From: Owenia fusiformis
Taxonomy: Eukaryota > Annelida > Polychaeta > Sabellida > Oweniidae
NCBI GenBank assembly: GCA_903813345.2
Contig: CAIIXF020000011.1
Coordinates: 2,134,571-2,198,570, forward strand
DNA: 64,000 bases
Direction: 5' to 3'
The notes beneath the pieces are model-generated. The model had not been told where the DNA came from. It ran no database searches and was given only the letters and a program-made list of their open reading frames with translations. Numbering within the stretch: the first letter of the stretch is position 1; every line of letters starts with the position of its first letter. The position numbers and the translations under genes are program-made. Below are positions 717-58,814 of this stretch, piece by piece.

Positions 717-856
717 CTGCAATTACATAAATAAGAAACATATCATAAGTGAATCATGGAATCATGGTGTAATTATATAGTACAAGGATTTCAGATTTAT
801 TTAAACATCGTATGAAATAAGAATGCTAGAGGATACAAAAAATCTTGGAATGGACT

Positions 857-37090: not shown

Positions 37091-37872
37091 TTACACCCGG
37101 TATGTGATAATGAATAATTGTCCGTTATGATCCCCAACCAGTAATTTCCCGTCTTGGCTTATCCCAACAGCGCTTGGGAATTTCACGCCATCACTCTCTG
37201 TTAGGAGGTAACTATGGAACGTGCCATTAGGGGCAAGCAGCTGTATCCTGTGGTTGTGCCTGTCTGCTACCATTATGTAGTCCAATGAATCTGTGACGAC
37301 ACCTGCGGGGAAATTCAGATGTCCCGCCCCTGATCCACGTGTACCTCCGTAAGTGAAAAGTACGTTGCCTGCTTGATCCATCCCTTTTAAAGGTCCTGAG
37401 TGGTCGGTAACTATAACCACTCCTTTGCTGTTAGTTGTCACAAAGTTAGGCCATACAAACGAATCAGAAGCAGGGATGGTTGTTGCATTCCCTGTAGACT
37501 GATCAACAATATACACTCCATCTGTCCTTACACCGCACACAACCAACTGACCAGTAGATAGTGTAGTAATACCATTTAGTTGAAATGGAGACACTTTAGC
37601 CGTTATGTTGCGAATAGGACTGCCATCTAATGTGTAGAAGTAGATTGTCCGTGACAAGTCAGTGAATACAAGTTGGTCATCATCTGAAACTGCAACATAC
37701 TGGAACTCGTTGCTAACGTTTTTGATGAGAGTAAAATCACTGTCATATATCTTTGTGGTAAAACCAACTGCCACAATATGTCCTCTTGATGTTACTGCAA
37801 GATCATCTATAAGGCTTGACTGCAGCTGTATCTTCGCAACGATTGGTTTGGTTTTTAATTGTCCTATGGTTA
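37091..37872 (-). CDS. Gene B, exon 6: NHL beta-propeller and stop
   Basis: The acceptor TTTCATATAATTGCAG precedes the exon, whose first two bases complete a phase 1 codon. The 260-codon frame begins VTIGQLKTKPIVAKIQL and shows NHL blades: STGQLVVCGVRTDGVYIVDQ, NSKGVVIVTDHSGPLKGMDQ, NFPAGVVTDSLDYIMVADRH followed by NHRIQLLAPNG, and GVKFPSAVGISQDGKLLVGD. About six blades fit, enough for a closed propeller. Several Asn-X-Ser/Thr sequons (NIT, NAT, NGT) fit secretion. The stop is at 37091-37093, after TYRV. The exon start was chosen by the acceptor, not by an initiator codon, because the conserved frame continues upstream of any start codon. Confidence 0.9.
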
Positions 37873-38360
37873 CTGCAATTATATGAAATATCAGTAATGT
37901 TTAAGGTAATTATTAAATCTGAACCATGTACGGAATCATGTTGTAAGCTTAATATGTTAATAAGTTTGTTAAAACAAATTTACAAATCTTGTCGGAATAG
38001 AATATTAGAGGGTGCTTCAAATCGTTGAATGCAAATGGTCATTTAAAATAATAATAAATAATGAATTATAAAATAATTTAAAAATCTATATTTTCATGCA
38101 CAAAATGTCAGAGTTGTAATTGGGTTAGTTTAGAAACGGACAACATCGACGTTTCTATTTTTACACTTCGCATAATTATTGCGACAAACCAAAGTTTACC
38201 GAAAACTGCTCATTTCATGATAAGGGCAGGGTGAGAGTGTTATCCTTAAAGATTTTTTCAGTCAGTATTTCCATATATATTGTGTTGCTCATATGTTATT
38301 TTAAATTTTACACCTTAATTTAAATTACATGTAGACATTGAATCACAACCCAGTTTGAGG

Positions 38361-38563
38361 ACATGAGTTTCAAACATGACTGTCCAATGGAACAATACTT
38401 ACTTACATCATCATTGATAAGGGGTGGACGCTCTTTAACAACTCAATTAAGAACTGGTACAATCCCATTAGCAATTAGAAACAGGGATATCTGCTCAACC
38501 AAAAACCCCAGTACACCAAAGCCAGTGCCAAAAAGGCAGGTACGTTATTGCAAGGTTTTCTAG
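38361..38563 (+). pseudogene. Non-LTR retrotransposon fragment (region after reverse transcriptase)
   Basis: The frame reads GGRSLTTQLRTGTIPLAIRN and later KPVPKRQVRYCKVF. This resembles the segment C-terminal to the reverse transcriptase of many animal LINEs (RSL-AQLRTGT-PLAIETGRF … R-C--C), with the Glu-Thr-Gly stretch disturbed and the last Cys replaced by Phe. It lies in intron 5 of gene B in the opposite direction. No other part of the element is readable, so it is a short dead fragment. Confidence 0.5.
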
Positions 38564-40364
38564 ATTAAGTCCTAATAATTATTTGACCACAAAAACAAAT
38601 GCCTTTGTTTGGCCAATATGTTATCTTCAAAAGGGGGCAATAGAATGAAAATAAAGTCGATCGGATTATCTCTTAAGCTGTCATTAATCCACCCATCATC
38701 ACAAATTTTCCCCAATTATTAGCCAATTAATTTCACCAAAATTGCAGCATTTCATTGCAATTTATACGACCAAATCGAAATGTACTATAAGTCATGATTT
38801 ACCTCTGAAAAGGAAAAATGAATATCCTTGGCATGGGATTAGGATAGTCCGAAAAACATGAAAATTTGAGGTCAAATATCTGGCCTAAAAGTAACAATTT
38901 TGATATGGTTTATGTAGCCTACAAAAAGATTTGGAGATATTACATAATTGATCTCCAAAAAATAAAAAATAAAAAATAACATTATGACAAATTGATCATG
39001 CGATAATTTCTTTCTTATTTTGTTAGTTTATTGCCCCCCCCCCCCGGCGTTTCCAAAGTTGACGAGCTACGGTAAATATTAAGGTACCATATTATAGGTC
39101 ATTCAAAACTCTCGAGGAAAGTAGGTCAAAAAGAAGGTCAAAGTAACAAAGGGTGGAGCTTTTTTGGCATATAGTTTTTAATTTTTCAATAAAAAATATA
39201 TAATATTTTATTAGCCAGAAAAGGGTAATCAATATGATAGATGTATATAATATCTACTATTTTAGGCCAAAAACCGTAGGTAAATACCTTTCTTGAATCT
39301 TGAGGTAGTTTGGTCAAAATTTGAAGAAATACTAATTTTACTAAATGAATATCCTCAAATTTTCAAGGCTATAAAACAGCTTAAAACGTTTTGTCATTGG
39401 TTAAGTAATGGCTGAGAAAATGACGTTTTTAGTGCATCTCGGTCAGCGAAATTGTGACTTACAGCGACTCGATAATAAGCATATCTGAACCAAAAGTTGC
39501 AGAATTGACCAATTTTCATGATTTATTTTGCTTTTAATTATAGACATAGAATTATTACATAGAATCGCATTTTTTCTATTTTTACTAATTAATGAAAAAT
39601 ATTTCAAAATAAATAAAGTCAACCAAAATGGCAGAATATTTATTTTCTCAAAAACTAGCAAGTGTATTGCAATTTTCTCTTAGCAACTTGTTTGTAACAT
39701 ATGTCAAATTATTTTGTAATATTTTGATGCATATATATCTACTTTTTTTGTAAATTACATGCATATTGAGATGGGAAATTAGCTGTGGATTGAAAAAATC
39801 TTTGGGGAGGGGGAGGAAAATGAAATAATTTCTTCAAAACGAGTTAAGATATGGTGATATTGTTTAGCAGACATCTTGGAGACAAAAATGTTCATGGATA
39901 TATGACGTCTAGTTTTTGAAAAATCATTTTTAATCAAATATTTGGAATCAAAACGCGAGTTGTGGACAAATTATGCGCCATAATGTGATATTAAAAAAAC
40001 ATTGTTTTTGGACAAAAATAGTCAAATTACCTTGTACTATGTCTTGTTTGAAAGTGTATTCACTATATACTATATCTACGTATATGGTCTATATTTAAAA
40101 GAAGGTAAAGAGAACCAGCTTATATTTTTATTCTATGAAAGCACAAAGTGATTTTCAAGCTATTTCTGTTCCTACCATCCTAACTTAGCCAATATACCCT
40201 CTATCACCTCGAATTTCGCGCTAAAGTGGTATTTTATCTGTAGCTATGGCAACTACAATTACAAAAAAAAATTTCATGGCAGAAAAGTACCGGGGAAAAT
40301 TCGACGCCGCCCCCCCCCCCCGCCCGCATTGGGGTTAAACCAACTATTTAATATCTTTACATAC

Positions 40365-40475
40365 TTGTACAATTGACTCCAGCGAATTCAGCCTTGCATT
40401 TACACGTATATCTGTTTACTTTGTCAATACATGTGCCTTCATTTTGACAGGGGCTTGGATCGCACTCGTCTATAT
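40365..40475 (-). CDS. Gene B, exon 5: Ca-binding EGF-like domain
   Basis: 37 codons between a CAG acceptor and the donor A|gtatgt, phase 1 at both sides. The frame DIDECDPSPCQNEGTCIDKV continues NRYTCKCKAEFAGVNCT, with six Cys in EGF spacing. The DIDEC start and D-x4-Y before the fourth Cys match the calcium-binding EGF consensus. It is a near copy of exon 4, and together with it equals the single exon 4 of gene C. Confidence 0.9.
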
Positions 40476-40632
40476 CTGAAAGTGAATACCTATTAGATGG
40501 GACTTGGTGAGACTTCATTAAACCAAGATGCGGTTGGTGTACATGACGTGTGGTCAATCCTTCAAAATAATGCAATAACATATCAAATAAGACAAGGTTA
40601 TCCAAAAACGATTAATACAAATATGTACAAAC

Positions 40633-40746
40633 CTGTCTCACAATTGACACCAGTATATCCTGCCTCGCACTTACACGTATAGCTGTTCACTTGGTCAGTA
40701 CAGTTGCCTTTATTTTGACAGGGACTTGAATCGCATTCGTCTATAT
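40633..40746 (-). CDS. Gene B, exon 4: Ca-binding EGF-like domain
   Basis: 38 codons, phase 1 at both borders (TTTCAG acceptor; ACAG|gtttgt donor). The frame [20 protein letters not shown] continues [18 protein letters not shown], with six EGF Cys and the Ca-binding signature. It is only 157 bp upstream of exon 5 and probably arose by exon duplication, or its partner was lost from gene C. Confidence 0.9.
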
Positions 40747-41130
40747 CTGAAATGATGTACAGCCATGAATTAATATTAAAGAAGGCCTAATTAAACTACG
40801 TTAAAGGACAAACAAAATTATCAGAAAACAAACGAATTATTAGGGAAGTTCCACCATATTGTGTTCCAACACTGGCTGATGATTTAACCATTATGGCATC
40901 TTTCCGTTAAGTTGTAACCGTCTTGGTTTTAATTTGTAATACTGTATTGTAAACTTTTACCTATATTTGTTTTGGGGTTTTTGTTTGTTACGTGTATAAA
41001 TGTTGTGTATGATTTGGTTATTGTTGGATCGTTGATTGATTTGTGTTTTATGTGGGAATATGTTACATTCCTTTTATTCTGGTAATAAGATAAGAATAGC
41101 CAAGTACAACTATTGAGCATTTTTCCTAAC

Positions 41131-41238
41131 CTGTTTCACAATTTCGCCCAGTGTAGCCACTCTTACACTGACACGTGTAGCCATATTCGTTACAAGCTCC
41201 GTCATTATCACAGGGTGTCGAATCGCAAAACTCTTGAC
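41131..41238 (-). CDS. Gene B, exon 3: EGF-like domain
   Basis: 36 codons between CCTTATAG acceptor and ACAG|gttagg donor, phase 1. The frame QEFCDSTPCDNDGACNEYGY continues TCQCKSGYTGRNCET: six Cys in EGF order. It lacks the D-x-D-E lead of Ca-binding EGFs, so it is a plain EGF-like domain. It is orthologous in position to gene C exon 3 (55354-55467), which is two codons longer. Confidence 0.9.
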
Positions 41239-41269
41239 CTATAAGGTAAACAAAACTACTGGTAACTTG

Positions 41270-42070
41270 CCCGTAGCCAGCTTTTACCAGGAAGGGGAGC
41301 ACTTTTCACAATTTTGGCTAAAATCCATGCGAAATATTCTCAGAATGGTGAAAAACTGCATGATTTTGAAAGAATTTCTGGCCAGGGCGCTCCCCCAGCT
41401 CCCCCTCTGGCTATGGGCCTGGGTAGGTCCTGTCAAGTGAGACAATACGTTTCCAAAGTCAGTTTCAAACTCAATTTTTTCGTTGGTACTTTTTGCAATT
41501 TTTTTTGCCTCTGTTATTTTTTACCTTGAGTCACAGATATAAGACACTTTTTGGCGAAAAATCAAGGTGGTCGGGGATAGAGCGACAAAGTTGCGATGGT
41601 GGAAGTTGATGCCAATATTTATGAAATTCATAAGATATTGATGGTTACCGTTACGATCATTTTTGCTCTGTTTGATAAATAATTATTAAGACATTGAATT
41701 TCCTCTCAATTTTTTTATTTCATGAACATCGAGCTGCTATTGACTTATTATGAATTTTTAGAGGTAAAATAAAGTAGTCAATCAACGAATATTAGCTCAT
41801 CGCGTTCACATCACGAATTTTAGAGAAAAACTACTCAATGAATACCTATGATTCTTGGCATGTTACTGAATGTTTATGGGGGGGGGGGGGGGGGGTCAGT
41901 TTTCAAAAATTTCCAGGGGGGTTCACATTTGACAATTTTGGCCCAAATATGACTAAAATCACTTGAGAAGTGCTCAAAATGGTGAAAAACTGCATGATTT
42001 TGAAAGAGCTTTTGGCCAGGGAGGGGAAGATGTCGCCCGAACCCTGCGAACCCCCTGGCTACGGGCCTGA
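41270..42070. repeat. Two copies of a repeat with GGCCAGGG…GGCTA-GGGCCTG, and a ~20-bp G run
   Basis: GGTGAAAAACTGCATGATTT followed by TGAAAGA, TGGCCAGGG and CCTCTGGCTATGGGCCTG (41345-41420) recurs at 41980-42070 (…CCCCCTGGCTACGGGCCTG). A run of roughly 20 G starts at 41878. All of it lies in intron 2 of gene B. Frames at 41234-41529 are repeat-derived. Confidence 0.7.
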
Positions 42071-42745
42071 AGCTCCATAGTGTAGATCGAACGAATCTGA
42101 AGTTGATGAAGTGTGCATGAATTACGAATCAAACTAGGTCAGTAGGTTTATTATTTATATGAAAACGTCAATCTATCCGTCAAAGTTGTAGATCGTACAC
42201 TCGTATATTCTCATTTGCTAAAATTCTAGTCCAAATCCATTCTACTTTTTCTCAAGAAATCGCTTGTTTTCCTCGAAATTCTTTATCAGTTTTGCATACG
42301 ATTTTAGAAACGCTTTACCATTTTGTTTTAATATTTTTTTCAGATTATGAGAGAAGAGTAAGAAATCGAATATACTCGTATCTCTCAAAAATTGAACTTG
42401 TTGAAGAAATAAAAACCTCCCAACCTGGTGGTGCTAAACGTGCAACAAACCGACTTAAGCCTACATTAGGCGATGTTATGCCTACATGTGTGCTAAGGCA
42501 TTAAACTACTGACAAAACAAACGCTTATCTTTCTTATTTTGATGCCAGGGCGTTTCTTTCTTGCCAATGGCGCAATCCAATGTGAAAAGAAACAGTAGCT
42601 AATTCCCCATTCCCAACCATTCAAGCACCAATATCACAATTCATACGCTAACCAGGATAAACAAGTAATTCTCTTTGGTAGTTGTGATTTTGACATGTAC
42701 ATAATAATTATTTTACAAGTATTCATTTGACAAATGTATATTTAA

Positions 42746-43197
42746 AGGGAGAATCAGATCTAGCGAGCAGGCCAACAAAAAATGCTTTCAATTTTAGAAT
42801 ATTTCTGGCTCATGTCATTCGTTCACATGTCTATTTTTTAAAAATCCCAAAGTGCACTCTTTATTTCAAGAAAACTAATAAAGATTTATACAATAATGTA
42901 TTATTTTTCTATAAGAATGGTTACCATTCTTATTATTTGGGAGAATTTAAACATTTGAACCCATTTTTGCACTTTTAATCCATTATAACTTTGTCAATTT
43001 ATAACATATCATGAATCTTTTGGAAGATATTGTATTTGAGATTGTAAATATTTTCATATTTATGTATTAACTCCCAATTAATGTACAATTGTAACTCTCT
43101 TGAGGTAAATAAAGAATACAATACAATACAATAGATTACTAGGTTAGTTGTACATGTTACTTGCAATTTTTTCACTCCTTTATATCCGATTCTACCT
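42746..43197. mobile_element. TTAA-flanked MITE (family T), copy 2, in gene B intron 1-proximal side of exon 2
   Basis: The ends AGGGAGAATCAGATC and GATTCTACCT are inverted repeats between TTAA at 42742-42745 and 43198-43201. The equivalent intron of gene C (about 55925-55955) reads GTATATTTAACCTAACGTTT with no insertion, so the element entered gene B after the two genes separated. It matches 24360-25763 minus its mariner. Note that it lies downstream (3') of exon 2 on the transcribed strand, in intron 2. Confidence 0.85.
43046..43132 (+). mobile_element. Short retroposon tail ending in (ATACA)n inside the MITE
   Basis: Compared with the MITE copy at 24360-25763 this copy has about 85 extra bases ending GGTAAATAAAGAATACAATACAATACAAT-like A-rich pentamers (written in parts: AATAAAG, then ATACA repeats). 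The 5'-truncated body plus a simple-repeat 3' tail is typical of non-LTR retroposition. Confidence 0.5.
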
Positions 43198-43244
43198 TTA
43201 ACTTAACGTTTGATTTTCCATTGGTGACCATTCCTTGTACTTAC

Positions 43245-43472
43245 CATTTGACTTACGTAATGCTGCAATTTCTCTTTCAATACCAGCATTATCAGCTTTT
43301 ATATCAGACACGTCCGTTTTTATAGAAGAAATGGCATTTGAGAGTGTTGAAACCATCTTTGTCAGTGTAGAAATACCAGCCGTTAGAGTGGCAACGTCAG
43401 AGGAAATACCAGTTGCCAAGGTATTCAAGTCTTGTCTTGTCTTTTGGCAACAAGATGAACCAGCATGTGTGT
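43245..43472 (-). CDS. Gene B, exon 2: Cys-Cys knot and heptad coiled coil
   Basis: 76 codons between the acceptor CTATCTTTCAG and donor AAATG|gtaagt, phase 1. The exon opens (D)THAGSSCCQKTRQDL, then runs in strict seven-residue steps: VATLTAG, ISTLTKM, VSTLSNA, ISSIKTD, VSDIKAD, NAGIERE, IAALRKS, with Val/Ile at one core position and Leu/Ile at the other, and one buried Asn. Such an Asn is known to favour parallel coils. The vicinal Cys pair just before the coil could lock oligomers by disulfides. It is 29 codons shorter than in gene C. Confidence 0.85.
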
Positions 43473-44674
43473 CTGAAAGATAGTCGTTAACAACATGAAG
43501 CTTTAAACGAACAGTCAAAAATGTGTTTAACATGTGAATATTGAGAGGTCGTAATTTTAATATGGAACTGGTGGCTCCTGTTACAATCAATCCAATTATT
43601 GATCACACGATCACTTTTGTAAAAAATTCAAGAGTAAGACATTGCTCCATTTTGGCAATGCGCCATGCCATACCTCATTTCTTACTCAGCTACAATGACT
43701 TGGACCCGCCTAACCATCGACAAGGTACAGTGACAAAATATACCGTAGTACACTTTAGATGTACGATGTCACTATTTATCCGATTTGAAACAAAGACAAT
43801 GATGCAGGTGTGATGTAGGTTTTAAAAAATTAGTCTTGGGAATACTTGAAAGATTTCATGTTTAATTTCGTGTGTATTCGTTTAGGAAGACATTTAACTT
43901 TCTTATAACGTTAAAAGATTTTCGAACAGTGTTCTGTGTTCTTTTGTAGTCAATCTTTCCACGAAAATTGATCAGTTGGAAAATGTTGGGGTTTTCACAT
44001 TTCCTTTGATAATTTTTTCCTCTGTTGCCTAAGATTGTCGATTATTTTTATGAGAATATGTTTCTCTATGCTACACAATTTAGGACGGGTGGTGATTAAT
44101 AAATATTCAAGTATTTGTTGTAATTTTAAAAAATCAGAAATGTGCGTTGTCAACTCGAATGAACGTTGTCCCTGTAATTGAAATTCATGATATATACGTA
44201 TTATTAAACAATGTAATGATTTCATTTCAAAATTCATTAAGTTTGAACTATTGAAACTTTCCAAATATATCATGAACGGGATTTTAAAAAGTCATATTCA
44301 ATAAGCTAGTATAGATCAGTATGTCTATCTATCAAATAGCTAACAAAACGTAAAATACATATGTTCGTTAAAGATCACTTGTTACGTTGTCCCTGTAATT
44401 GAAATTCATGGGATATACGTATTATTAAACAATGTAATGATTTCATTTCAAAATTCATTAAGTTTTTTTAAAGCCTACATCAAACATACATCATTGTCTT
44501 TGCTTCAAATCGGTTAAATAGTGACATCTTACATCCAAAGTGTACTACGGTATATTTTGTCACTGTCACGTGACTACCTTATCGATGGTTAGGCGTGTTG
44601 GATAGAAATAAAAAAAGTTTGATTATTACGTTGTGTGTTTTAAACAAAGCGTGTATGCTGTAATATTTACTTAC

Positions 44675-44732
44675 CTTCTATAAAGACAGCTATTAATACT
44701 GTCAAAAGTCCTGTTAAACTGTGAAGTCTCAT
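44675..44732 (-). CDS. Gene B, exon 1: signal peptide
   Basis: ATG (44730-44732) opens MRLHSLTGLLTVLIAVFIE and ends GAAG|gtaagt in phase 1. It is a compact signal peptide, almost identical to that of gene C (58757-58814). The exon was chosen by homology of the two copies, matching phase and an upstream in-frame stop. The 5' flanks of B (to about 45010) and C (to about 59070) are also similar, including ACTAGGGATAAAA…GGTCA-GTTTGTGAAAA, which may hold the shared promoter. Confidence 0.85.
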
Positions 44733-45597
44733 CTTTCAGTTATAATAGGCTATGTACGACCTCTGACTCGTTGGATCTGTAATCTATGTGCATATGCAAC
44801 TCTTCAATGTCATTGAAAGTTGCATCGGTAAATTTAATTCGTATCGTTGTTAATGCATCGAACATAATGTTGAAAGGTTATACAGAGGAAACATTAATCA
44901 AATTCTGTTGTATGTCTGTCTGAAAGATTTACTTGATATAACGTATCGACTTTTTACCACAATAATTAGGGATACTAGGGATAAAATGGTCACGTTTGTG
45001 AAAAACATAGGGGTTCAGACTTTGTTTTCAAAGATTCATTCTTATATGTTTTCATCGAAAAATCAAAAAAGAGATTGCTACCGCAATAGAAATAATGTTT
45101 TGATTGAAAGCTACCAAACCATGATACTAATACCAAAACATGTCCTAACTCTTTGTTATACTAGGCTTTACAACGACTTCAGAAAGTTTTATCTTCGGAG
45201 GCCTGTCATATTGTAAAGGATCAGTTACCCCATCTACCTAAAGATGCCCCTTAAGGTTTCGTTGAAAATAATATGGAATTATTTACTTTAATCAATTATG
45301 AACATTGGGATTAAAACTGAGGTCGTTCGCTGCATTTAAGTTTGGCTATGAAAATCATTCTAAATATCATTTCAGGGGTATCTTAGTCTTCTCTCATGAC
45401 TATTTTAAGTATGTTGACCATTCAGTCAATAGATATATCAAAATATCATTAGGTAGAACACAAAGGGCAATATATTGAAGCCACAAATCATTAAATAACT
45501 CCTAAAAACGTAATATCAATGAATCTTAACACAGGCTTCTCAGCAATATTACCATGATCACCTCAGTTGGTATATAGTAGGTTTAAACTGACCTATT
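44733..45597. other. Upstream flank of gene B
   Basis: Homologous to the flank of gene C up to about 45010. The plus-strand frame 44908-45216 has no recognisable domain and partly overlaps this conserved flank, so it is probably not a gene. Confidence 0.4.
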
Positions 45598-46110
45598 AGT
45601 TTCTTTGAGTGAGAGTTACCTTACAACCAGTATCCCTTTAAATGGGAAATGGATATTGATTTAGTCCTTCTGCAATATATCATCTTGAGGGGCATGTATG
45701 CATGATGATCAAAAATAGATTGATTCAATAGTTTCTTTGGATGAGAACTATCTCACAAGCAGTGTCCCTTTGAGCTAAATGGAGAATGATGGATCAAAAA
45801 TAGATTTATTCCTTGTTTAAGATATTTTAGTGTTTATTAGGATAAGAGCTATATTACAAGCAGTGCCCCTTTAAATTGGTAAATGGATATTGATTCAGTC
45901 CTTTGGCAATCTATCATCTTCAAGGGCAGGCATGAATGATGAATCAAAAATAGATTGATCCATAAGTTTCTTTGGGTGAGAACTACCTTGCAAGCAGTGT
46001 CCCTTTAAATGGGTAAATGGATATCGATTCAGTCCCTCAGCAATATGTCTTCTTCAGGAGCAGGCATGAATGACAAATCCAAAAATAGATTGACCCATTT
46101 AAAACTTATC
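45598..46110. repeat. ~130-bp degenerate minisatellite, about four units
   Basis: TTTCTTTGGGTGAGAACTA…CAAGCAGTGTCCCTTTAAAT…AAAAATAGATTGATC recurs from about 45598, 45732, 45831 and 45968. Units vary by internal deletion. Confidence 0.75.
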
Positions 46111-47507
46111 TGATAGTTTGAGCCTTGATGTCTGGCAGATCCAATATGGCCTCCTTGTTGAATCTTAAATTTTTGCTATACTTTCACATTGCGTATCTTC
46201 CGCAGTCAGGGCCCTCTCTTATTTCATGTTTGAACTATGCAATAATGTCAATACTAAACAATAAAGGTAAAATCAGAGGGGTCTGACTTGCGGAAGCACC
46301 TCAATCTGTCAGTGACTGGAGAAGGTCATTCAAAGTTAAAAACAAGAACACAATAGGGTGCCTTTCAAAACAATAGGATAACAAAGTATCTATGCATGAC
46401 TGGCCAGTGAAGTGAAGCTTAATATGCTCTGAGACGTTGTAGTTTTATACTGACAAGTCAATTTAAGTGTATCTACAAAAATTTAGATTAAGGTTTTGTG
46501 AAAATATGTGAAAATTACTCACTTTAGAGTCAGAATGACATGTGTTAAACATTTGTTTACCCTTTTCTAAATAGTATTTTTGTGATTTGTTGAAAACTTC
46601 ATTAGAGATTCATATTACATAAAAATAATTCTGGAATTCCATTTTACCCTTTTCAATAAAGGAGCACTTAGGTTATCGCAAACAATTTCAAACGATTCTA
46701 ACTTGAATTATGAAAATTTTCTGATCATAAACATGGGTGTATCTTTTAGATCCATTCATTATCTTCAAGAAAAGTATATATAATGATAATTTAGTTAATC
46801 AGACCTAAGTGATATTGAAGGAGCAATGGACCAATCAACATACTTTTTCAAAAGCATTGGCCTAATTTTCACCAAAAATGCAACCTTGTATTATATTGTT
46901 GAATGTATAATTAGAATGTGCTTTGAGACATGTTCGATTTCCTTAAAGGAAAATTTGATTGCTCTGGCCATGGGGACTTTAAAAATACTGAATTTGGATG
47001 ACCAAAATGAACTGAAACCAATGGATAGCATGAGATTTTTCAATGGAGAAATAACATGGGGAACACAGTACTTATCTTAAAGATACATTAAAATAAAGAA
47101 TAGTAATGCATTAAACAATGTAGAAATTGATTGCATTTTGGTAAAAATGAGGTCAACATCTTTAAAAAGTGAGTTGATAGGTTGATTGCATATTATAAAT
47201 TATAAATGTAATGTTTTAACTATTAAACATACAACATTGTGTACATACATTAATATAGACATGCATATTGCAGTCAACCGTGAACTTTGCAATTGATTTA
47301 TCTTAATTTGGTCAACTCAGACAGTAGTATAAGGTGAATTTAATGCTGTATGGTGAATCGATTTATCTTTTTTGACAAATCAGAAAAATAAAAATCTTTA
47401 AAACTAAAAAAACGTGAACACTTATCACGCCCAGTGATCGGGAAATGGGGCGGAGGGGGGGGGGAGGCAATTTCTGCTATAAAATACAACAAATCTGGAA
47501 TTGTTAA
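46111..47507. other. Intergenic, upstream of gene B
   Basis: Contains a 15-bp inverted pair (CTTCCGCAGTCAG near 46198; CTGACTTGCGGAAG near 46283). 47200-47280 is similar to 61080-61160, a comparable distance upstream of gene C (TTTAACTATTAAA…CATTAATAT). The frame 46826-47080 (84 codons) has no recognised domain. Confidence 0.45.
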
Positions 47508-47915: not shown

Positions 47916-47984
47916 AGTTAGAGATGTTAGTGTTAAGTAATCAGTACTAGATGTTAGAGTTTTTGTGTGTGCTGGCTTAACAAC

Positions 47985-48790: not shown

Positions 48791-49424
48791 ACGTTCTCCT
48801 TTATCAATTTTGTTTTAACAAATCATCTACAAGTCCTGACCTTAGTTTTGAGATTTGACATTTTCTATCCCTTCAGTGACCTTCGTAAGGTCAACAAAGT
48901 TGATGTTCTAAAATTATTTTTCGGGATTCAAATTTAGTTCAGCAAAATCACATAAGTCCTATTGAGGTAAGAAAACAAACGATGTTATCGAAGTTTCTCA
49001 AAGTTAGATACTACAAATCATTTCTTAACGTCAAAACTCCAAGAAGAAAAGCATTGACCTGCTCACTTCGTATAGGGTGTGATTCAATATCGTAAACTTT
49101 TTATCCCGTCTGACGAAGTTAGGAGAGATATAGGGAATGCCTCCGTCCGGGTGTACGTCTGCCCGGGTGAATACCGTAAGCCCGATTTTCTTCATATTTT
49201 GTACACATGTGCACTATGGGAGTAGAAAATCTGCTTGAAATCTTATTTTCAAGATGGCCTTTTGTTTCAAAATAGCGCCCATTTTAGGGCCAATTTTACA
49301 GTAATTTAGGTATCATATATAAATCTGTAATAGCGAAAGCATTTATAATGGACATAATGAAGTTAGAAATGTAGATATTTTACACGCTACTTTACGATTG
49401 TTTGCAGTAACTTAGTAGTGGAGC

Positions 49425-49825
49425 GGTTTTGTTCATATTTGATATGTGAATACTCATGAGCATTATATACTGATTTTGACACGTTGGCTTGAAGGCGGCC
49501 ACTTTGAAAAATGGCCATGATTTACATGTACTGTACTTATATACGTGCATTTTTACATTTTTTATTACTATAACTCCAAAAGGATAGTGATTTTGTTTAT
49601 ATTTGATATGTGAATACTTTTAAGCACGATACACTATTTTATGACACTTTGCCTAGAAGGCGGCCATTTTGAAAATGTACGCCATTTTACGTGTGTTATT
49701 TTACGTTTCCCTACTATAACTCAAAAAGTAATAGAGGGATTTTTTATCATATTTGATATGTGAATACTTGCAAACTGTCCTAGGACACTTTGGCTAGTGC
49801 GCGGCCATTTTCTGGCAGGCTTGGC
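49425..49825. repeat. ~163-bp tandem repeat with AAGGCGGCCATTTTG
   Basis: CATATTTGATATGTGAATAC recurs at about 49435, 49597 and 49760, each followed about 70 bp later by GAAGGCGGCCA-TTTTGAAAA or GCGCGGCCATTTT. It lies just beyond the 3' end of gene C. Confidence 0.8.
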
Positions 49826-49960
49826 TGTTCGATGGGTTTTGCTACGCTTTAGCTTTGCTGTTATCCAGTTATATGCATAATATTTGTATATATTTAATCA
49901 TTTTAATATTAATGCACAATAATCATCGTGTTCAATATTGTCTTATGTTTTATATTCATT

Positions 49961-50751
49961 TTATTCCCTGTATGTGATAGTAAATAATCGTCCTCTGTTA
50001 TCCCCAACCATAACTTGACCATCTTTGTTTATCCCAACAGCTCTTGGGAAGATCACGCCATCACTTGCCGTTAGGAGGTAACTATGGAACGTGCCATTAG
50101 GGGTAAGCAGGTGAATATTGTCTTCCCAGGCTTCTGCTACCACTATATAGTCCTGTGAATCTGTCTTGACACCATGGGGAACAGCCAACATCTCTTCGGG
50201 TTTTGGTCCATCTTTACCGTAACTAAACAGTACTGAGCCAGTTCGGCTCAGCCCTTTTACAGAATCTCCGTGGTAGTCGGTAACTATAATTACACCCTTG
50301 TTATTAATGGTCACATAATTAGGAGTTTCAAACGTACCATTAGCAGAGATGGGTGTTGCATTTCCTGTATACTGGTCAACAATATACACTCTGTCTGTCT
50401 TTCCATCGCATACAACCAACTCACCAGTAGATAGTGAAGTGAGACCAGTTAGTCGAGCCCCTTCAACCGTTACATTTATGTTGCGTATAAAACTGCCGTC
50501 TGTTGTATAAAAGTGTATTTCACTAGAACTAAAAGTAGTGAATGCAAGTTTGTCATCGCTTGTAACTGTTACAAAAGAAAATTCTTTGCCAATGTCCTTG
50601 ATGAGAGTATAATCACGGTCATATATCTTTGCGGTGTTAATATCCGTTGCCACAATATGTCCACTACATGTTACTGCAATATCATGTATAAAGCCAACCG
50701 TCAGGGTTCTATTTGTAACAATTGGTTTGGTTTTTAGCCTTCCGATGGTGA
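49961..50751 (-). CDS. Gene C, exon 5: NHL beta-propeller and stop
   Basis: Acceptor …TATGTAATTGCAG; the 263-codon frame starts VTIGRLKTKPIVTNRTLTV. NHL blades: STGELVVCDGKTDRVYIVDQ, NNKGVIIVTDYHGDSVKGLS, AVPHGVKTDSQDYIVVAEAW (followed by EDNIHLLTPNG) and GVIFPRAVGINKDGQVMVGD. Compared with B it has lost the NHR motif (here WEDNIHL in place of RHNHRIQ), so the strongest blade is diverged. Stop after TYRE at 49961-49963, overlapped by an AATAAA. The frame extends past the acceptor to an upstream ATG at 50768-50770, but homology and phase support splicing. Confidence 0.9.
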
Positions 50752-51606
50752 CTGCAATTACATAAAACACAAGTAATAATGTTTAAGTAAATAGAGAGAT
50801 GTCGCATCTCACTTAGATAATACTAGCATGTTTATTATCTCCCTAGAACGTATAACTTGTTGGGCGTTTGACTAAGTCATCATTTATTGCACAGCGCTTT
50901 ACGTCTATAGGTGTGATATTCAATGAATATTTATTCAATGAATAATTATTCAATGATTCGAGTGAAATACAGAAAATATTCTTCCCGAGAAGGTCGTATT
51001 TCACGATGCGCTAGCTAAAATTATTAGATTGTGATGATCACCGTATCATTTACTGATATTCAAATTAGATATTTCTAGCAAAATGCAAATTTTAGCATGC
51101 GTTGGTGTAAACTTTTCGCCATTGATTTTTACAGTAATAGTCATATCCTGGATGGAAATCTGGGGCGTTGGGATACTGAACCATATCCCAACGCTGACGT
51201 CATTTTCACTCTGTATCCAACGCTAAGTGGAATGTGCGTGCAAATACAGGATATATTTAAGTCACGTGGACTAATCAGATTGCAAGGAATATCACCATCA
51301 TGAAGAAGGGAATTAACCTCAGAGTTCAAAGATGATATACGCGTATAATGTTAACCCCTATTGAGATGACCCACGTCTCTGATTGCTCAAAACGACAAAC
51401 AAAACTGGCGGATTCAACATTTTCTAATAACGCTTCGAATAATGTTAATGTTAATTTCTGGCGTTTTAACCTATATTATAGCTTGTTATTTCACATCAAA
51501 ATAAAGAAAGATGTAAGGAATATGCTTAAATCGATTAAAAGATCACAACGACGCGTTATATTCGAAAACTAACTGGTGAGAATTTGCGAAAACGAAGGTG
51601 TTGCGC

Positions 51607-52120
51607 AAAAGACGTGGTCAAAAAACGGAAACCCTGCATTTTCCTCATATCTTTGTCATTTTAAGTAATTTTTCCCTAATATTTCACACATCTGTAAATC
51701 ATTTAATTTTTTTGAACAACATGCTTTAGGTTTGGCCATCATCGCGCCGTAGGCAAACCTGCACAGTTGTCAATGATCCAAATGCATTCCTCATCAGGTG
51801 TGGCCTGAATGATACAGATGATCTCATTTTTGAGGTCTGCAATTGTCCCGAGGTCATTCTTATACACTCTATCTCTGCCATATCCCCATAGGTAATGACA
51901 TTTTGGACGACATGTTCAGGTTGGTCTTCAGCGCAATAGTGGCCACCGGGAATGTTCTTTAAAGTGCTGTAACACTGTGACTATCAATCTGATGGTCATG
52001 AAATAAGGTAGGCAGGTAGGAAATTGAGTGATGTACAAATGTGCAAAGTTATTTCTTAAAATGACAAAGATATTACGAAAATGGTGTAAGGGTTTCCAGT
52101 TTTTTTTACCACCCTGTACT
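51607..52120 (-). mobile_element. Decayed mariner-like element in gene C intron 4
   Basis: GGAAACCCTGCATTTTCCTC (51636) and its approximate complement ending GGGTTTCCAG-TTTT-ACCACCCTGTA (52115) form inverted ends that also share ATCTTTGTCATTTTAAG. The inside retains the tail of a transposase (51727-51926). About 510 bp remain. Confidence 0.65.
51727..51926 (-). pseudogene. Mariner-like transposase tail
   Basis: Minus strand: CHYLWGYGRDRVYKNDLGTI, ADLKNEII, then EECIWIIDNCA, a counterpart of the FYLWGYVKDNVY…ECSRVIDNFA tail at 9102-9330. The frame is short and ends in a stop; the catalytic core is missing. Confidence 0.7.
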
Positions 52121-52262
52121 TTTCAGTGTGTGATACAGAAAATCTTATACGAAAGTAAAATTATTCATTTTTACTTGAGTGAAAGACCCCGTATCACACA
52201 AGCTGAAACATGTAATGACGATTTTATTACATATTATGTAAAATTCCAGTGATTTGATTTAA

Positions 52263-53223
52263 GAAATATAGACCAAAGAGCAAAACTACTCGTTTCGGAT
52301 ACGACCGAAGGGAGTGAGGGGTTCGAAAGTTTTTGTGCCTAGACCCTGCGGGGTGTATTCGAAAGTAGTAGCCCTGCTCTAAGGTCTAAATTACGATTCG
52401 AACATGAAAACTCACCAGAATATTGCAAAATCGTCAATTTCGATGTTCATTTCCACTTTTTTTCATTTCCACTTCCGGTTGAGCGTTTGGCTGTATTAAT
52501 TTGTTTACTTACCTCCTGATCCCGACTTAAGTTTTTTATTGACATTTCGGCCTATTTTATTGGTTTCACGCATATCTACTACATTGATAATTATTAAAAT
52601 TATTGAGATTACAGTTTACAAATGCTCCGACAGAAAAGTTTGGCTCTGGACAATTTCTCCCTGCCATTCTGAATTTTGCAGACGAGAGGGGATGCGAAAA
52701 GAACGGAACGGCCTAAACTGACCAATGAGTGCACTGAACGAAACACTTTGTACAGAGCCGGGGAATTGATCTCGAATATAACCCAGCTCAAGCATTGACT
52801 TTGTTCACAGTTTATAGAAGGCATGAATACAGTCATGTTCGAATGGACTAGGTACGTGGCTACTTCCTCATTACATGAAAAAAGCCAATAACAATCAGTA
52901 ACAATAACAATCATTCAAACATGACTGTATTCACGCCTTCTATAAACTGTGAACAAAGTCAACATTTCACCCGGGGTATATTCACTAACAATAGCCCTAA
53001 TACGAGTAATTTGCGACGTCATAACGGCGGGCCGTAGTAATGGCGGACCATAATGAATATTCGGAACATTTTGATGAGTTCGAATCGTAATATAGACCTC
53101 GCAGCAGGTGTAATATCGTCGAATACACCCATTAGGGTGGTCGTTCGGGGTACAGAAAACGTTTGTGCCTAGCCCTAAGGGGTGTATTCGACGATATTAC
53201 CCCTGCTCTTCGGTCTATATTTC
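52263..53223. mobile_element. TTAA-flanked TIR element with internal 50-bp hairpin
   Basis: The ends GAAATATAGACCAAAGAGCA and TGCTCTTCGGTCTATATTTC are inverted repeats between TTAA at 52259-52262 and 53224-53227. Subterminal parts are also mirrored (GTGCCTAG-CCCT, GGGGTGTATTCGA). In the centre, 52792-52840 and 52919-52968 are near-perfect inverted repeats (TTGACTTTGTTCACAGTTTA…). There is no transposase. Confidence 0.8.
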
Positions 53224-53884
53224 TTAAATAACAAACAATCAAAACTATTTCGAATTCACTCTTACGCCATGAACCCATCCTCGTGTACCCGTTCAATTTA
53301 GTAATAACGTCATTAACAGTATTAAAGGAAACAATATGAAAAATCATCACTGGTTGCCTTTAGTAACGTGTTAGACGGTAACCAACCAATCAGATTACTG
53401 GAATTTTACATAGTACATGATAATCTTATGAATCGTCTATGCGAAAGAATGGAGAGGTTAAGCTAACGATGTTTTTCACAACGTAACCGTGAACGCAAAG
53501 TACAAAAATTAACAAAGGAATGTATCGTGCGCTCATAGTTTTATGCGCGCTTAGTCTACTTCAGATACTCTTTCAGCTTTAGAGTTTCGGGTTTAGAACG
53601 GGACATTTGAAATTTGACGTTGGGTCAACGGGAACCATTTTACTCGTGTCTATTGAACACTGTGCTGTCAATTTTGATTTCGATGCACAGTTGAATTCTT
53701 GCTGAACACGATGATGTATGTCATGCATGATTTAGCGCCAAAAATCTTACGAATCATTACACACTATGGTGTAGTCTAAACAAACACTGGATTTGAACGG
53801 CTATTTATATGAGAAGGCTACATGAATTTGTATATGGTCGAGTGATACGTACAGGTTCAGTTTCGATTATATATGCAAAGCTTA

Positions 53885-54040
53885 ACGTTTGCACGTTGGT
53901 GATGATGCGCCTTTTTTAAAAGATCTCATATCTTAGAAGGGTATCAGTTCAAAAAAATACTAGATGACCTGACATATTTTGCCATGCACTGCGCCTATTC
54001 ATTTGGCAATTCAGTTGTAAATTTTCTCTTGAAAAAATAA
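53885..54040 (+). repeat. Interspersed repeat, copy without the mariner found at 29224
   Basis: TTTGCACGTTGGTGATGATG, GATCTCATATCTTAGAAG and TTTGGCAATTCAGTTGTAAA match 29190-29223 joined to 30196-30320. Here CGCCTTTTTTAAAAGATCTC is continuous, so this is an empty site for that insertion. Confidence 0.85.
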
Positions 54041-54222
54041 ATCTCATTTCCCGAGAAGTATAACTAGAATAAGGATACCAGAAGAAGTAGCTCATTGCTC
54101 ATTGCATTACCCTTTGCTATTCGAGATTATTTTGCAAACAATATTTGTTTACACACCGTTGCTCCCTAGTTGCTCCTATAATGTTAGTATTTTGATGGGG
54201 CCTGCTTCGATGTGTGGTTCAG

Positions 54223-54340
54223 GGAACTACAGGGTGTCAAAGAACTCATTAGAATTTTTTGAAGGAGCTATAAGGCGGTAAAAAAACTTTGAAAATAAGG
54301 GGGAGATAAGTATATTCATTTCACACCCTCTATCTTAGTT
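54223..54340. mobile_element. Small CAGGGTGT-ended MITE
   Basis: TACAGGGTGTCAAAGAACTC and …TTTCACACCCTCTATC form inverted ends about 115 bp apart. An inverted relative lies at 48241-48335 (ACAGGGTGTGAAATGAATAT … TTATAGCTCCTTCAAAAAAT). Confidence 0.65.
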
Positions 54341-54672
54341 TTGATACCCATAGCTTAAATATAAAGGAGGCCCTAATCAGAACGTTGTCACAATTTAGGA
54401 TTTGGCACACGATTCATATTCTAATTGCAAACGCTTATATTATGCAGTATCAACATGTTCGAAATTATTATTTGTTTCGATGATATTTTTGTTTTATTTA
54501 CTTTGCATGTGTCATTCGTCGAAAAGAAAAAAAAAATTGTTTTCAGAATTCGTTAACACTTCATTCAACTTCATTGATGATGTTGTCGTGGGCTTATTTG
54601 TGTACAACATAATGCAGATGAATATTTGGTAAAAATGTAGCATTAAACCAACCATTAATTATCTTTACATAC

Positions 54673-54783
54673 TTGTACAATTGACTCCAGCAAATTCAGC
54701 CTTGCATTTACACGTATATCTGTTTACTTCGTCAATACAGGTGCCTTCATTTTGACAGGGACTCGAATCGCACTCGTCTATAT
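54673..54783 (-). CDS. Gene C, exon 4: Ca-binding EGF-like domain
   Basis: 37 codons, phase 1, CATTTTAG acceptor and A|gtatgt donor. The frame [20 protein letters not shown] continues NRYTCKCKAEFAGVNCT, with six Cys and the Ca-binding signature. Its first residues (DSSP) follow exon 4 of gene B but the rest (NEGTCID, KAEFAGVNCT) follows exon 5 of gene B. The same holds for the flanks: acceptor-side intron like B exon 4, donor-side intron like B exon 5. Confidence 0.9.
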
Positions 54784-55353
54784 CTAAAATGATATACATG
54801 AATTACTAATGAAGAAGGCCTAATTATACTCCATAATCCCTTATGTGCAGCAAGATCTTTCATTCAAAAATGCAATAGCATACATGGAAAGACAAAGTCA
54901 TCGGAAAACCGAAGAATTATGGAAGTTCCATCTATTGTGATTGTAGCGGAGGCATCAAAAGTTCAATGTCTGTTAAAAACGTAACCAATTAAGTTTACCT
55001 CTGACCCCCACCCCTCTTAGAACTTAATTCTTAAAATGTTGAAAATCGGGCTAGATAATTGAAAAAAGAAAAACATACCAAATATATGACGGAAAACGGT
55101 AAGTTTCAGCAAAATTTTTACAAGCTAAGAATGATGGTTAGCATCTATTATGGTCAAAACATTGATTTGTCGGATAGAAAACTAGTAGTATTGAATCCCC
55201 CACTCCAGTTCCCAACGTTAATTTGTTAAGTTTCTAAAAATACATCGATCTTTTGATGCCTCCCCGTAAAATACTTTATCAGATACCTATGCAAGACTGA
55301 AGTAAAATAACGTTATTATATAGCCTAGTACAAATATTGACATTTTTCAAAAC

Positions 55354-55467
55354 CTGTTTCACAATTCCTCCCAGTGTATCCACTCTTACACTGACACGTG
55401 TAGCCATTTTCTGTTTCGTTACAAGTTCCATCATTTTCACAGGGTGTCAACTCGCAATTTGTTTTAT
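55354..55467 (-). CDS. Gene C, exon 3: EGF-like domain
   Basis: 38 codons, phase 1, acceptor TGATTTTCAG. The frame (D/N)KTNCELTPCENDGTCNETEN continues GYTCQCKSGYTGRNCET, with six EGF Cys. The donor ACAG|gttttg is weak compared with that of gene B (gttagg). It corresponds to gene B exon 3. Confidence 0.85.
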
Positions 55468-56020
55468 CTGAAAATCAAAATAAACTACAGGCAGGTCATT
55501 TCTAGTGAGGCAATATTTTTCTTGAGAACTCGCCCGCGTATGCAAAATGTAAATGACGTCATGAGAAGTACTTGAAGACAACGGCAGTTATGCGATTGCA
55601 AGTGCCAACGGAAAACATCAAAAAGGTTTCAAAACGCAGCATGCAAGTTAAAGAAAACATCAAAGGGTACACCTGTCATATCGAAATTAAATCCAAACTA
55701 TCAAACCCCTCAACAACCATTCAAGCACCAATATCACAATCCAATACGCTAACCAGGATAAGTAAGTTATTCTCTTTGGTAGAAATTTCTGATTTTTAAT
55801 TCACACAATTATTTTAAAAGCATTAATTTGACAAATAAATATTTTTAACCTAACGTTTGTGGTGCCATAGCTATTTTTATAAGAATTCCTATTCGATTTT
55901 CCATTTTTATTTTAAAAGCATTAATTTGACAAATGTATATTTAACCTAACGTTTGTGGTGCCGTAGCTATTTTTATTAGAATTCCTATTTGATTTTCCAT
56001 TTTTACACTTACGTACTTAC

Positions 56021-56335
56021 TTAATGTCTTCACTAATGCTGCGATGTCTCTTTTAATACCAGCATTTTCAGCTTTTATATCAGACACGTCCGTTTTTATT
56101 GAAGAAATGGCATTTGAGAGTGTTGAAACCATCTTTGTCAGTGTGGAAATACCAGCCGTTAGAGTGTCCACGTCGGAAGAAATACCAGTTGCCAAGGAAG
56201 ATACTTCTTCTTTGATGCCAGCTTTTAAATCGGACATTTTGGTTGTTAGCGTTTCTTCAATTGCAGATACCAATGATATCATTTCTTTCAGCTCTTCTCT
56301 TGTCTTGTGGCAACACGATGTACCAGCATATGTGT
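56021..56335 (-). CDS. Gene C, exon 2: Cys-Cys motif and extended coiled coil
   Basis: 105 codons from the acceptor CTATCTTTCAG; the donor chosen is TTAA|gtaagt, which keeps phase 1 (a later gtaagt, 12 bases on, is also in phase). The exon reads (D)TYAGTSCCHKTREELKEM, ISLVSAIEETLTTKMSDLKA, GIKEEVSSLATGISSDV and then the same heptads as gene B (LTAGIST, LTKMVST, LSNAISS, IKTDVSD, IKAENAG). The extra 29 residues relative to B lie before LATGISSDV and continue the coil. A buried Asn is conserved (KAENAG). Confidence 0.85.
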
Positions 56336-57699
56336 CTGAAAGATAGTGGTTAACAACATGAAGCTCTAACAAAACATTCATGCGTCCAACATCACTCTAT
56401 CCTACCACGTGACCACGTTAAAAAGTGGTACAGGCGAAAGTGTAGTTGCAAATATAAGACGTGAGTTTATTTATATTTCCATATTCACACTACTATACCT
56501 TGCATTTGGTGTTCATGAGCAACCCATTTGGCTTATTAGTAATGATTATGTATTTGTTTTTATTTGTCTGTTCCTTATGAATGGTTTATCGGTTGAAAAT
56601 TAGATGCTAGTAAGGCACTTTCAAAAATATATTAAACAATTCAATTAGACAAACAAAGTATCTTATGCATTTCTAGGTGTTAGGTATAGTAGTGTGATAT
56701 TTCTGGAGGTAAGCTCGATTTTACATCTTATAAACATAGTGTTCTGCTATCAATAGATTCATCGAGCAGATTGAAGTGTATTATTACCAGAAACCTCTTA
56801 TAGAACATTGATCTAACTTTACTTATGCTATAGAAGATTTTTCAACCTCCATTGGTTAAAAGGATATGCAAATAATATAATTATAAAGTGTGTGGGTTGC
56901 ATCTTTTCTGAAACACCCTGTACTTGAGATTATTTTTTTATTAACAAAATGGACGATCGCGACCAGGTATTTTATCGACGAACAAATACCGTTTGGCTTG
57001 GTACGACCGTACAATCTCTTCTGCTTAGATATTTATGGGTCCCACTTTGAATGATTTTTAAATTCTTTTCATTGTCTAATAATTGAAATCTTCTTATATT
57101 GTACTTTCAGGCAAAGTTAGTCAGTGCAATTTAGTGCTTTATACCACTGTATTATTTATTCTAAAATACACGTTCTGCCATTTTACACCAAATCGTTAAA
57201 ACCTTTACAACTGTTTTGAAGGGGATCTCTTGAACATTGATAAATTAACATGGGCTCAATATAAACGAGACCATTTTCGAGTCCCGATATTAACCAGTAG
57301 GGCAACTTTTCAACACTACTTTGCTAGATTTCAAAAATAAATGTACGAATGATACTTTTGGTCAATGTCGAGTAAGTCCATTCTGTGAAACAGTAGCAAG
57401 AAAAAAGTAGAACAGCAAAAAAGAAGTACAATAAATCAACGCCTCGAGTTTTTCACATGATGGAAAGGGAGAAAAGCTAAATATTGTTCAAGAAATGGCT
57501 TTGATCACATGTCTTTTTATTAAAATTCTGCTAAAATACCGAACAATATCCCAAACTATAATAAAACTGTTTTAATAATTCTTAGTTGCCCTTGTTTATT
57601 ACATGACATATGTTTAAGGTAAATTAAAGTTTATTTAAAGTGCATGAAGATCGAGAGAATCGAGTGAAATCAAGCGAGCAAAAACAAAATCCCAAATTA

Positions 57700-57800
57700 A
57701 TAAACGCTAGGAGCACACGCGTCTCGAACTCGCAACCTCGTGGTTACGGCCACAATCGCCTAGCCTAAACGTGCTAGCACTCAAGCCCTCTCGGCCAACT
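57700..57800 (-). mobile_element. tRNA-derived SINE head (Ser/Leu-like)
   Basis: The minus strand reads GTCGAGTTGGCCGAGAGGGC (class II tRNA A box and D arm), a long variable middle, and GGTTGCGAGTTCGAGACGC with a B box (GAGTTCGAGAC). The arrangement resembles a type II tRNA, but the acceptor stem is not closed and no proper anticodon loop is seen, so a SINE is more likely than a working tRNA. Confidence 0.55.
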
Positions 57801-57832
57801 CGACAACCCCAAAAGTAGACGTCATTTAACAT

Positions 57833-57995
57833 CCGGTGTAAAAGGGTAGGAGGTCATATTTATTTATGGTCCTACTCTCCATTGATTTATATGATGATCT
57901 CTTTCCCTTATTATCTTATACACAATCTGGGTCAGTAAGGGCCTTTAAAAAGGGGGACCATAATCACTAGGGGACCATAATTTCTTTCACACCGG
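57833..57995. mobile_element. CCGGTGT-ended MITE, copy 1
   Basis: Ends CCGGTGTAAAAGGGTAGGA and TTTCTTTCACACCGG. Close relative in direct orientation at 58196-58368; shared interior GGTCCTACTCTCCATTGATT. Confidence 0.8.
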
Positions 57996-58195
57996 GCTTT
58001 GTTTTGTCATCCAGGTTTTCTTTAAATGAGTGAAACTTGAAACAAAAAGGAAGAAAACAAATCTAATTTATGTATAGAATAATTGTGCAACTGAACTGCT
58101 AACTGACTCTGCCTTATCCACTCTAGGTCCAAAATCCCCCTAAATCATAATTACCATACCCCCCCTTCAAAGGAATTTTGGTCCATAAGGGAAAG

Positions 58196-58368
58196 CCGGT
58201 GTAAAAGGGTAGGAGATCCAATCAAATTATGGTCCTACTCTCCATTGATTTATATGTTGACCTAAATACAACACTTTCCCTCATTATCTTATACGCAATC
58301 AGGGCCAGTAAGAGCCGTTAAGAAAGGGGACCATTATCCCTGGGGGACCATTATTTCTTTCACACCGG
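58196..58368. mobile_element. CCGGTGT-ended MITE, copy 2
   Basis: Same ends and interior as 57833-57995, ten bases longer (extra TTGACCTAAATACAACAC-like segment). Both copies sit in intron 1 of gene C. Confidence 0.8.
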
Positions 58369-58756
58369 CACCGCCATAGACGCTAGAAAAAGGGCAGAAG
58401 GAAGAGTAAGCAGTTTGTAACTGAGAATATTGAATTCGTGTTTAATAATGTCCAATGGTTTAGGCTTGCTAAACAGCAACAACTTAAAAACTTTTTAGGT
58501 TTCCATAATTGGGATCACAGAATCTTTTCTTAATGACCAATCTACCATCATAACATCTAGCGATGGTATCGATACATATGATTAGTATAGAATTAGTTAG
58601 ATAAGTTAGATACCCTTGCCACTAGCACATTTATAACGTTCAGGTTTTATGTTTCTGATGGAGGCGATGATCCAGAGGAAAATATTAAAAGATTCTACTC
58701 AGAAAGAATTCATAAGTTTTTTTAAACGAAAAGTGTATCAGGTAAATTTTACTTAC

Positions 58757-58814
58757 CTTCTATGTAGACAGCTAAGAATACTGTCAAAAGTCCTGTTAAA
58801 CTGCCAAGTCTCAT
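58757..58814 (-). CDS. Gene C, exon 1: signal peptide
   Basis: ATG (58812-58814) opens MRLGSLTGLLTVFLAVYIE and ends GAAG|gtaagt, phase 1. It is nearly identical to gene B exon 1 at the DNA level. About 80 bp upstream on the minus strand CTTTTAAAGC-like sequence could be a TATA-type element (58890-58898), which is tentative. Confidence 0.85.

Follow-up and report, generated by a model that had tools for sequence, protein, structure and literature searches.

TRIM proteins carry their NHL propellers inside the cell, as heads known to bind RNA and proteins. What, then, are close kin of these heads doing on extracellular scaffolds? The question is raised by a 64,000-nucleotide stretch of the genome of the annelid Owenia fusiformis (contig CAIIXF020000011.1, here C11, positions 2134571-2198570), which we call the window. 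Three Eryth_link_C matches in this genome, one of them interrupted by an in-frame stop, fit an annelid source. Its minus strand carries two neighbouring genes, gene C (ATG at 58814, stop at 49961) and gene B (ATG at 44732, stop at 37091), with spliced open frames of 462 and 466 amino acids (aa), respectively. Both follow one domain order: a signal peptide (assigned by eye), a Cys-Cys pair, a heptad coil, EGF modules, and an NHL head contained in one exon. When these heads are compared with their relatives, positive selection is concentrated on the top face of the propeller. We lean towards the reading, made from sequence, that B and C are secreted and act in recognition, probably as disulfide-linked oligomers with variable ligands.

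The propeller head and its selected face

The head of genes B and C is predicted to be a six-bladed, TRIM-type NHL propeller. With the three heads of the window as input, the best of five AlphaFold models reached a predicted local distance difference test score (pLDDT) of 87 and a predicted template modelling score (pTM) of 0.87; it has 24 strands, which make six blades of four if strand 1 closes the last blade. The best Foldseek match is the TRIM2 NHL domain (template modelling score 0.85 of the query), VIA pairs the head with the TRIM71 and TRIM3 NHL domains at Z 32.0, and the best sequence matches in the Protein Data Bank are Thin, TRIM3, and TRIM71. The same genome contains one-exon TRIM genes, L032 and L033, with heads 44% and 43% identical. 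Pfam detects a RING and a B-box in L032, which L033 matches at 67% identity over its N-terminal part.

The top face consists of the six D-A and six B-C loops of the propeller. In the model, the stalk would enter the head from below, leaving the variable top face directed outward, because the stalk joins the start of the closing strand of blade six, the far end of which leads into the first D-A loop. A similar layout is described in an excerpt on LIN41, whose RNA-binding surface lies opposite the preceding filamin domain (PMC5908797) and so faces away from it, as the variable face would from the stalk here. Several TRIM NHL domains bind RNA with the upper face (PMC5908797, PMC9070667); for Mei-P26 and human TRIM NHL domains, RNA binding and a number of disease changes are both placed on this top surface (PMC9070667, PMC9634614).

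A search of the genome (498 Mb) with head C as the query, scoring the best candidates, returned at least 26 matches at ≥50% identity, or 25 loci if two adjoining pieces at 0.91 Mb form one gene. Nineteen matches are on C11, all within 0.31-4.34 Mb of this 37.3 Mb contig; five are on C7 (37.4-38.5 Mb of 39.8 Mb), and C3 and C2 have one each. In an unrooted tree, 24 rows of extracellular-type heads group together as a clade with 100/100 support, apart from the 22 TRIM rows. This clade comprises L030 and 23 of the 24 genes in the stalk survey described below, all except L007, whose broken head was left out of the trees and the selection tests. Nine more distant heads of unassigned stalk (L021, L023-L029, and L031) join the 24-row clade with 100/98 support. 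Each of these nine heads occupies a single exon; as a group they show strong selection on the top face and are richer in Cys than extracellular-type heads.

We estimated the ratio of nonsynonymous to synonymous substitution rates (dN/dS) by region from pairs of heads with dS of 0.05-0.8, with bootstrap 95% intervals. Heads with in-frame stops (L012 and L016) and the partial head of gene A were excluded from the selection and Cys tests, and the distant group was tested without L030. Across 20 heads (149 of 190 pairs), dN/dS was 1.14 (0.95-1.41) on the top face, 0.42 on the bottom, and 0.41 in the strands. The contrast is sharpest in the 10 heads of the TSP1/PAN group (all 45 pairs), where the top face reached 1.72 (1.20-2.40), with 0.52 on the bottom and 0.50 in the strands. 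The seven heads that include B and C gave 0.86 (0.66-1.12), 0.37, and 0.45 for the same three regions (13 of 21 pairs), and the nine distant heads gave 1.39 (0.95-1.99), 0.39, and 0.38 (35 of 36 pairs). For the 22 TRIM heads (23 of 231 pairs) the corresponding values were 0.80 (0.62-1.01), 0.28, and 0.33.

Site models locate the signal more closely. We compared M8 with M8a (a beta distribution plus a class with free omega versus omega fixed at 1) in our own code, taking branch lengths from the DNA tree with one free scale. Twice the log-likelihood difference (2dlnL) was 346 for 18 heads (L001 and L002 also being left out), 237 for the TSP1/PAN group, 295 for the nine distant heads, and 64 for eight heads that include B and C. 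Among TRIM heads it was 31 in a set of seven and 2.1, not significant, in a set of five. Sites scoring above 0.95 in the 18-head model number 23 of 69 on the top face, none of 55 on the bottom, and one of 112 in the strands (Fisher 5e-13); in the eight heads with B and C, the counts are 11 of 70, 0 of 55, and 1 of 113. Every one of the twelve top loops contains or borders one or more selected sites, one loop (site 73) in an alignment-dependent manner. When the TSP1/PAN alignment was split and a separate tree used for each half, 2dlnL was still 87 and 125. In 14 simulations with no positive selection, of which seven used two conflicting trees, it reached 5.6 at most. Selected sites are enriched in Tyr (11.8% versus 4.7%), Trp (3.1 versus 0.2), and Arg (9.9 versus 3.3), and are also rich in Asn and His. 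This composition resembles that of known binding surfaces.

Genes B and C and their duplicates

All nine introns of the two genes (four in C and five in B) are GT-AG and in phase 1. In gene C, exon 1 (58757..58814) encodes the start codon and signal peptide core and ends at a GT donor. Exon 2 (56021..56335; 315 nt, phase 1-1) contains 105 codons for the end of the signal peptide, the Cys-Cys pair, and the heptad coil. Exons 3 (55354..55467) and 4 (54673..54783) each encode an EGF module; the best Pfam EGF stretch covers residues 129-159 in the first, and the EGF_CA model stays below its cut-off in the second. Exon 5 (49961..50751) encodes the propeller head and the stop, as assigned by Pfam NHL, AlphaFold (model mf7b99af7b56f), Foldseek, and VIA. 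Gene B follows the same plan with one more EGF module: exon 1 (44675..44732) for the start codon and signal peptide core; exon 2 (43245..43472; 76 codons) for the Cys-Cys pair and coil; exons 3 (41131..41238), 4 (40633..40746), and 5 (40365..40475) for EGF modules 1 to 3, the last two found by Pfam; and exon 6 (37091..37872) for the head and stop, again by Pfam.

Domain assignments rest on Pfam where scores permit. EGF scores are 58.8 bits for gene C and 68.3 bits for gene B (cut-off 21.5), and NHL scores are 37.4 and 36.2 bits (cut-off 20); EGF_CA falls short in both genes, at 17.4 and 24.3 bits against 27. The Cys pair was assigned by eye, as TSCC or SSCC. In the best 35-residue window of the coil, the a positions read VIVIV and the d positions ILLLI, a pattern reached by none of 500 shuffles per gene. 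At the sequence level, then, a heptad coil stands beside a Cys pair, as in covalent coiled-coil oligomers.

Duplicates of both genes, B' (L002) and C' (L001), are located ∼69 kb away on C11. The heads of A', B', and C' lie at ∼2.08-2.12 Mb and those of A, B, and C at 2.13-2.19 Mb, and judged by these head positions the two trios appear to be a tandem duplication. In the B-B' and C-C' comparisons, 11 of 11 exons align without a gap column, and GT/AG is retained at nine of nine introns, which themselves contain 2 to 899 gap columns. For example, gene C exon 1 shares 55 of 58 nt with C', gapless, and gene B exon 3 is identical to B' at 108 of 108 nt. Against its duplicate, gene B has a dN/dS of 0.47 and gene C of 0.35, and the EGF exons range from 0 to 0.21 where the ratio is defined (four of five exons). 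Because the exons are gapless, the introns gapped, and dN/dS below 1, the reading frames look selected as proteins. The exons, splice sites, and coil/EGF/NHL order proposed in an earlier, sequence-only reading of this stretch thus hold up, to the extent that sequence and duplicates can show. Upstream of gene C, a possible promoter stretch (58920..59058, minus strand) is 75.9% identical to its counterpart upstream of gene B (44847..45004, minus strand).

Stalks, gene A, and the history of the head

Beyond that reading, the coil-EGF stalk appears to be one of several found upstream of the TRIM-type head. We compared upstream proteins for 24 genes (A, B, C, L001-L020, and L022); outside the B/C type, stalks were assigned to heads by upstream position. 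Coil plus EGF is found in six genes (B, C, L001, L002, L019, and L022), coil alone in L007 and L020, and EGF alone in L015. A PAN stalk was assigned to three genes (A, L003, and L014), and TSP1 and/or FN3 to eight (L004-L006, L008-L011, and L013). The last group has up to five full-length TSP1 repeats with further partial ones, FN3 in four loci, and a PAN-like piece in two. In L004, one sample each of TSP1 and FN3 was confirmed by Pfam, and the PAN of L006 lies just below the Pfam cut-off (20.9 against 21.4). Two genes, L012 and L017, had no stalk found upstream.

The remaining two genes, L016 and L018, combine a cytosolic tail, a membrane segment, and EGF modules. In each (L016:15-2550 and L018:1496-2731), an exon with a membrane segment and a Tyr motif in its N-terminal part, itself without a Pfam match, and EGF modules lie upstream of the head, with ∼5 kb between EGF and head. 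These genes may encode a teneurin-like receptor without YD repeats, held by a type II membrane anchor. For the nine distant heads, no stalk was recognised in ∼7 kb upstream, and tblastn with two TRIM N-terminal parts was empty there; no stalk was found for L030 either. The L021 head exon starts in phase 0 by our own reading.

A third head with a PAN exon stands at the start of the window and is probably gene A of the sequence-only reading. Its head exon (1..717, minus strand) is of the same type and runs off the window start (C11:2134505); it is 56% identical to head C and 61% to head B, with a Pfam NHL score of 52 bits. A signal peptide (by eye) and a PAN domain (Pfam PAN_1, 27 bits, cut-off 21.4) at 2061..2381 on the same strand were joined to this head by position. 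The duplicate A' (L003; head at C11:2075110) has an upstream PAN exon identical in translation to that of gene A.

Stalks were probably exchanged during the history of the family, because the eight rows with coil or EGF do not form one clade; a tree that unites all eight, a group named by stalk, was rejected by the approximately unbiased (AU) test (p 0.0146). Placing the heads of B and C as non-sisters was also tried (AU p 0.455, not significant), and a whole-head exchange between B and C is not claimed. Silent differences are denser in the head (67 of 186 sites) than in the exons of the stalk (20 of 113; counts rounded; p 6e-4). L007 is frameshifted, as is, in the assembly, the coil exon of L019 on C7 (L019:5400-5880), whose head is open, and L012 and L016 have an in-frame stop within the head; such lesions point either to turnover of the family or to errors in the assembly.

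The stalk modules that point outside the cell are signal peptides (by eye), EGF, PAN, TSP1, and FN3. The Cys content of the heads is also informative: the 20 extracellular-type heads have 1-3 Cys each and the 22 TRIM heads 3-8 (p 2e-8). Fewer Cys fits an extracellular life for the 20-head group; the nine distant heads and L030 have 2-7, a count that leaves the distant group undecided.

Probable recognition, its rivals, and known systems

How might such proteins work? We infer secretion, oligomer formation, and ligand binding, and with them a defence role that is plausible but unproven. Once secreted, two or three chains would be linked covalently through the Cys pair near the N terminus and through the coil, which has beta-branched residues at a and Leu or Ile at d. 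The EGF modules would serve as spacers, and a propeller would end each chain. Through the fast-changing top face, different paralogues would bind different ligands, the oligomer would supply avidity, and the probable ligands in immune recognition would be microbial or parasite surfaces. Recognition is the leading explanation because the selected face points outward in the model. The earlier suggestion of a stalk with a recognition head gains support in this respect; its parallel to FREPs and collectins is functional only.

Several observations weigh against this reading. The pairwise dN/dS of the top face is not significantly above 1 in all 20 heads or in the seven heads with B and C, and the whole-gene ratios of B and C are below 1. 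Two of the 14 null simulations had p below 0.05, and site models can overstate selection where paralogues undergo gene conversion. In recent pairs the picture is mixed: six of nine changed codons are on the top face in C-C', and four of 13 in B-B', where five are on the bottom. The faces themselves were assigned via the strand order of one AlphaFold model, and the pLDDT of the five models ranges from 87 to 57. TRIM heads have the top-face pattern in weaker form, and hence it is no mark of secretion. Enrichment of N-glycosylation sequons was tried as such a mark and rejected (1.70 versus 1.77 per head in the extracellular type and TRIM, p 0.91). A TRIM gene may have been the source of the head, because TRIM-NHL genes are, as an excerpt states, widely spread among animals (PMC3503706); the tree is unrooted, and TRIM as one clade fits better. 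A quick rooted tree that nested the extracellular clade inside TRIM was dropped, since keeping all TRIM rows together improved the fit by 13 log units.

These data also fit a role in reproduction or in self/non-self recognition. Propellers on the surface of egg, sperm, or body, with a top face driven by sexual conflict or allorecognition, would account equally well for a positively selected binding face, for the clustering of the copies, and for stalks built of extracellular modules. We nonetheless consider this unlikely: the presumably cytosolic TRIM paralogues share the top-face pattern, which pathogens would explain more easily, and the stalks would be many for a single reproductive interface. 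That the proteins are instead structural oligomers of tube, mucus, or cuticle, their variation reflecting relaxed constraint, is suggested by the coil, EGF, TSP1, and FN3 modules, which are common in matrix proteins. In the TSP1/PAN group, however, omega exceeds 1 on one face (1.72, 1.20-2.40) and stays near 0.5 on the bottom and in the strands, a contrast that relaxed constraint does not produce; nor does relaxed constraint fit the binding-surface composition of the selected sites. The sequence-only reading had put forward a defence or matrix role by inference; a plain matrix role now seems improbable, and defence is still conjecture. Venom-like proteins, too, show rapid change of secreted, clustered paralogues, and a propeller in a prey-directed or defensive secretion could bind prey or predator molecules. 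No sequence feature points there, two relatives may carry a membrane anchor, and we give this idea very little credence.

Beyond recognition by B and C, we entertain a wider interpretation as a tentative one. The NHL propeller may have been turned into a germline-diversified binding scaffold, its twelve-loop face serving both cytosolic TRIM ligases and extracellular proteins, oligomeric or membrane-bound, with stalks exon-shuffled in clusters near contig ends. In principle, such a scaffold would resemble the variable receptors built on Ig domains or leucine-rich repeats. If confirmed, the NHL fold would become one of the few recognition scaffolds in animals that are diversified through gene copies, and one recognition module would be common to cytosolic and extracellular arms, somewhat like B30.2 in fish protein families.

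By the features tested, B and C belong to none of the following families: TRIM, teneurin, FREP, collectin, and thrombospondin. TRIM-NHL proteins (TRIM2, TRIM3, TRIM71, Thin, and Brat) have the same C-terminal six-bladed head, in fold and sequence family, but precede it with RING and B-box; in B and C the place of these is taken by a signal peptide, EGF modules, and another coil, and the head has fewer Cys. Among the Pfam families listed at an expectation value of 1 (all 19 for gene B, the best 25 of 30 for gene C), there is no RING or B-box, nor any fibrinogen, Ig, collagen, or C-type lectin domain. FREPs of snails are a secreted, diversified family with Ig domains and a fibrinogen head; they share with B and C a secreted stalk and a C-terminal recognition head, which here is NHL. 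Collectins combine a collagen stalk with a C-type lectin head, neither of which is among the Pfam families listed for B and C. Thrombospondins are oligomeric, with a coil and nearby Cys followed by EGF modules and the thrombospondin C-terminal domain; B and C have a similar coil-Cys-EGF order and terminate in an NHL propeller instead.

Two further systems are closer in part. Teneurins, as described in an excerpt, place EGF modules ahead of a six-bladed NHL propeller (PMC6297184), an order also seen in B and C. The teneurin EGF model is below its cut-off in both genes (36 and 55 bits against 65), and teneurins continue after the propeller with YD repeats and an RHS core, whereas B and C end with the propeller exon and have a signal peptide and coil. 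The finTRIM genes of teleosts, again from an excerpt, underwent a lineage expansion with strong positive selection in binding loops, and share a domain with another protein family through exon shuffling (PMC2657112). The mode is alike, an expanded recognition domain with selection focused on one face; the finTRIM domain is B30.2 in cytosolic proteins, and here it is an NHL propeller that also sits on other, extracellular scaffolds. The sequence-only reading knew of no named family with the coil-EGF-NHL order, and among the open-access papers listed we likewise found no description of such a family or of selection on such heads.

Elsewhere in the window, open frames at 9782-10066 and 29712-29984 resemble, by eye, pieces of a mariner-type transposase.

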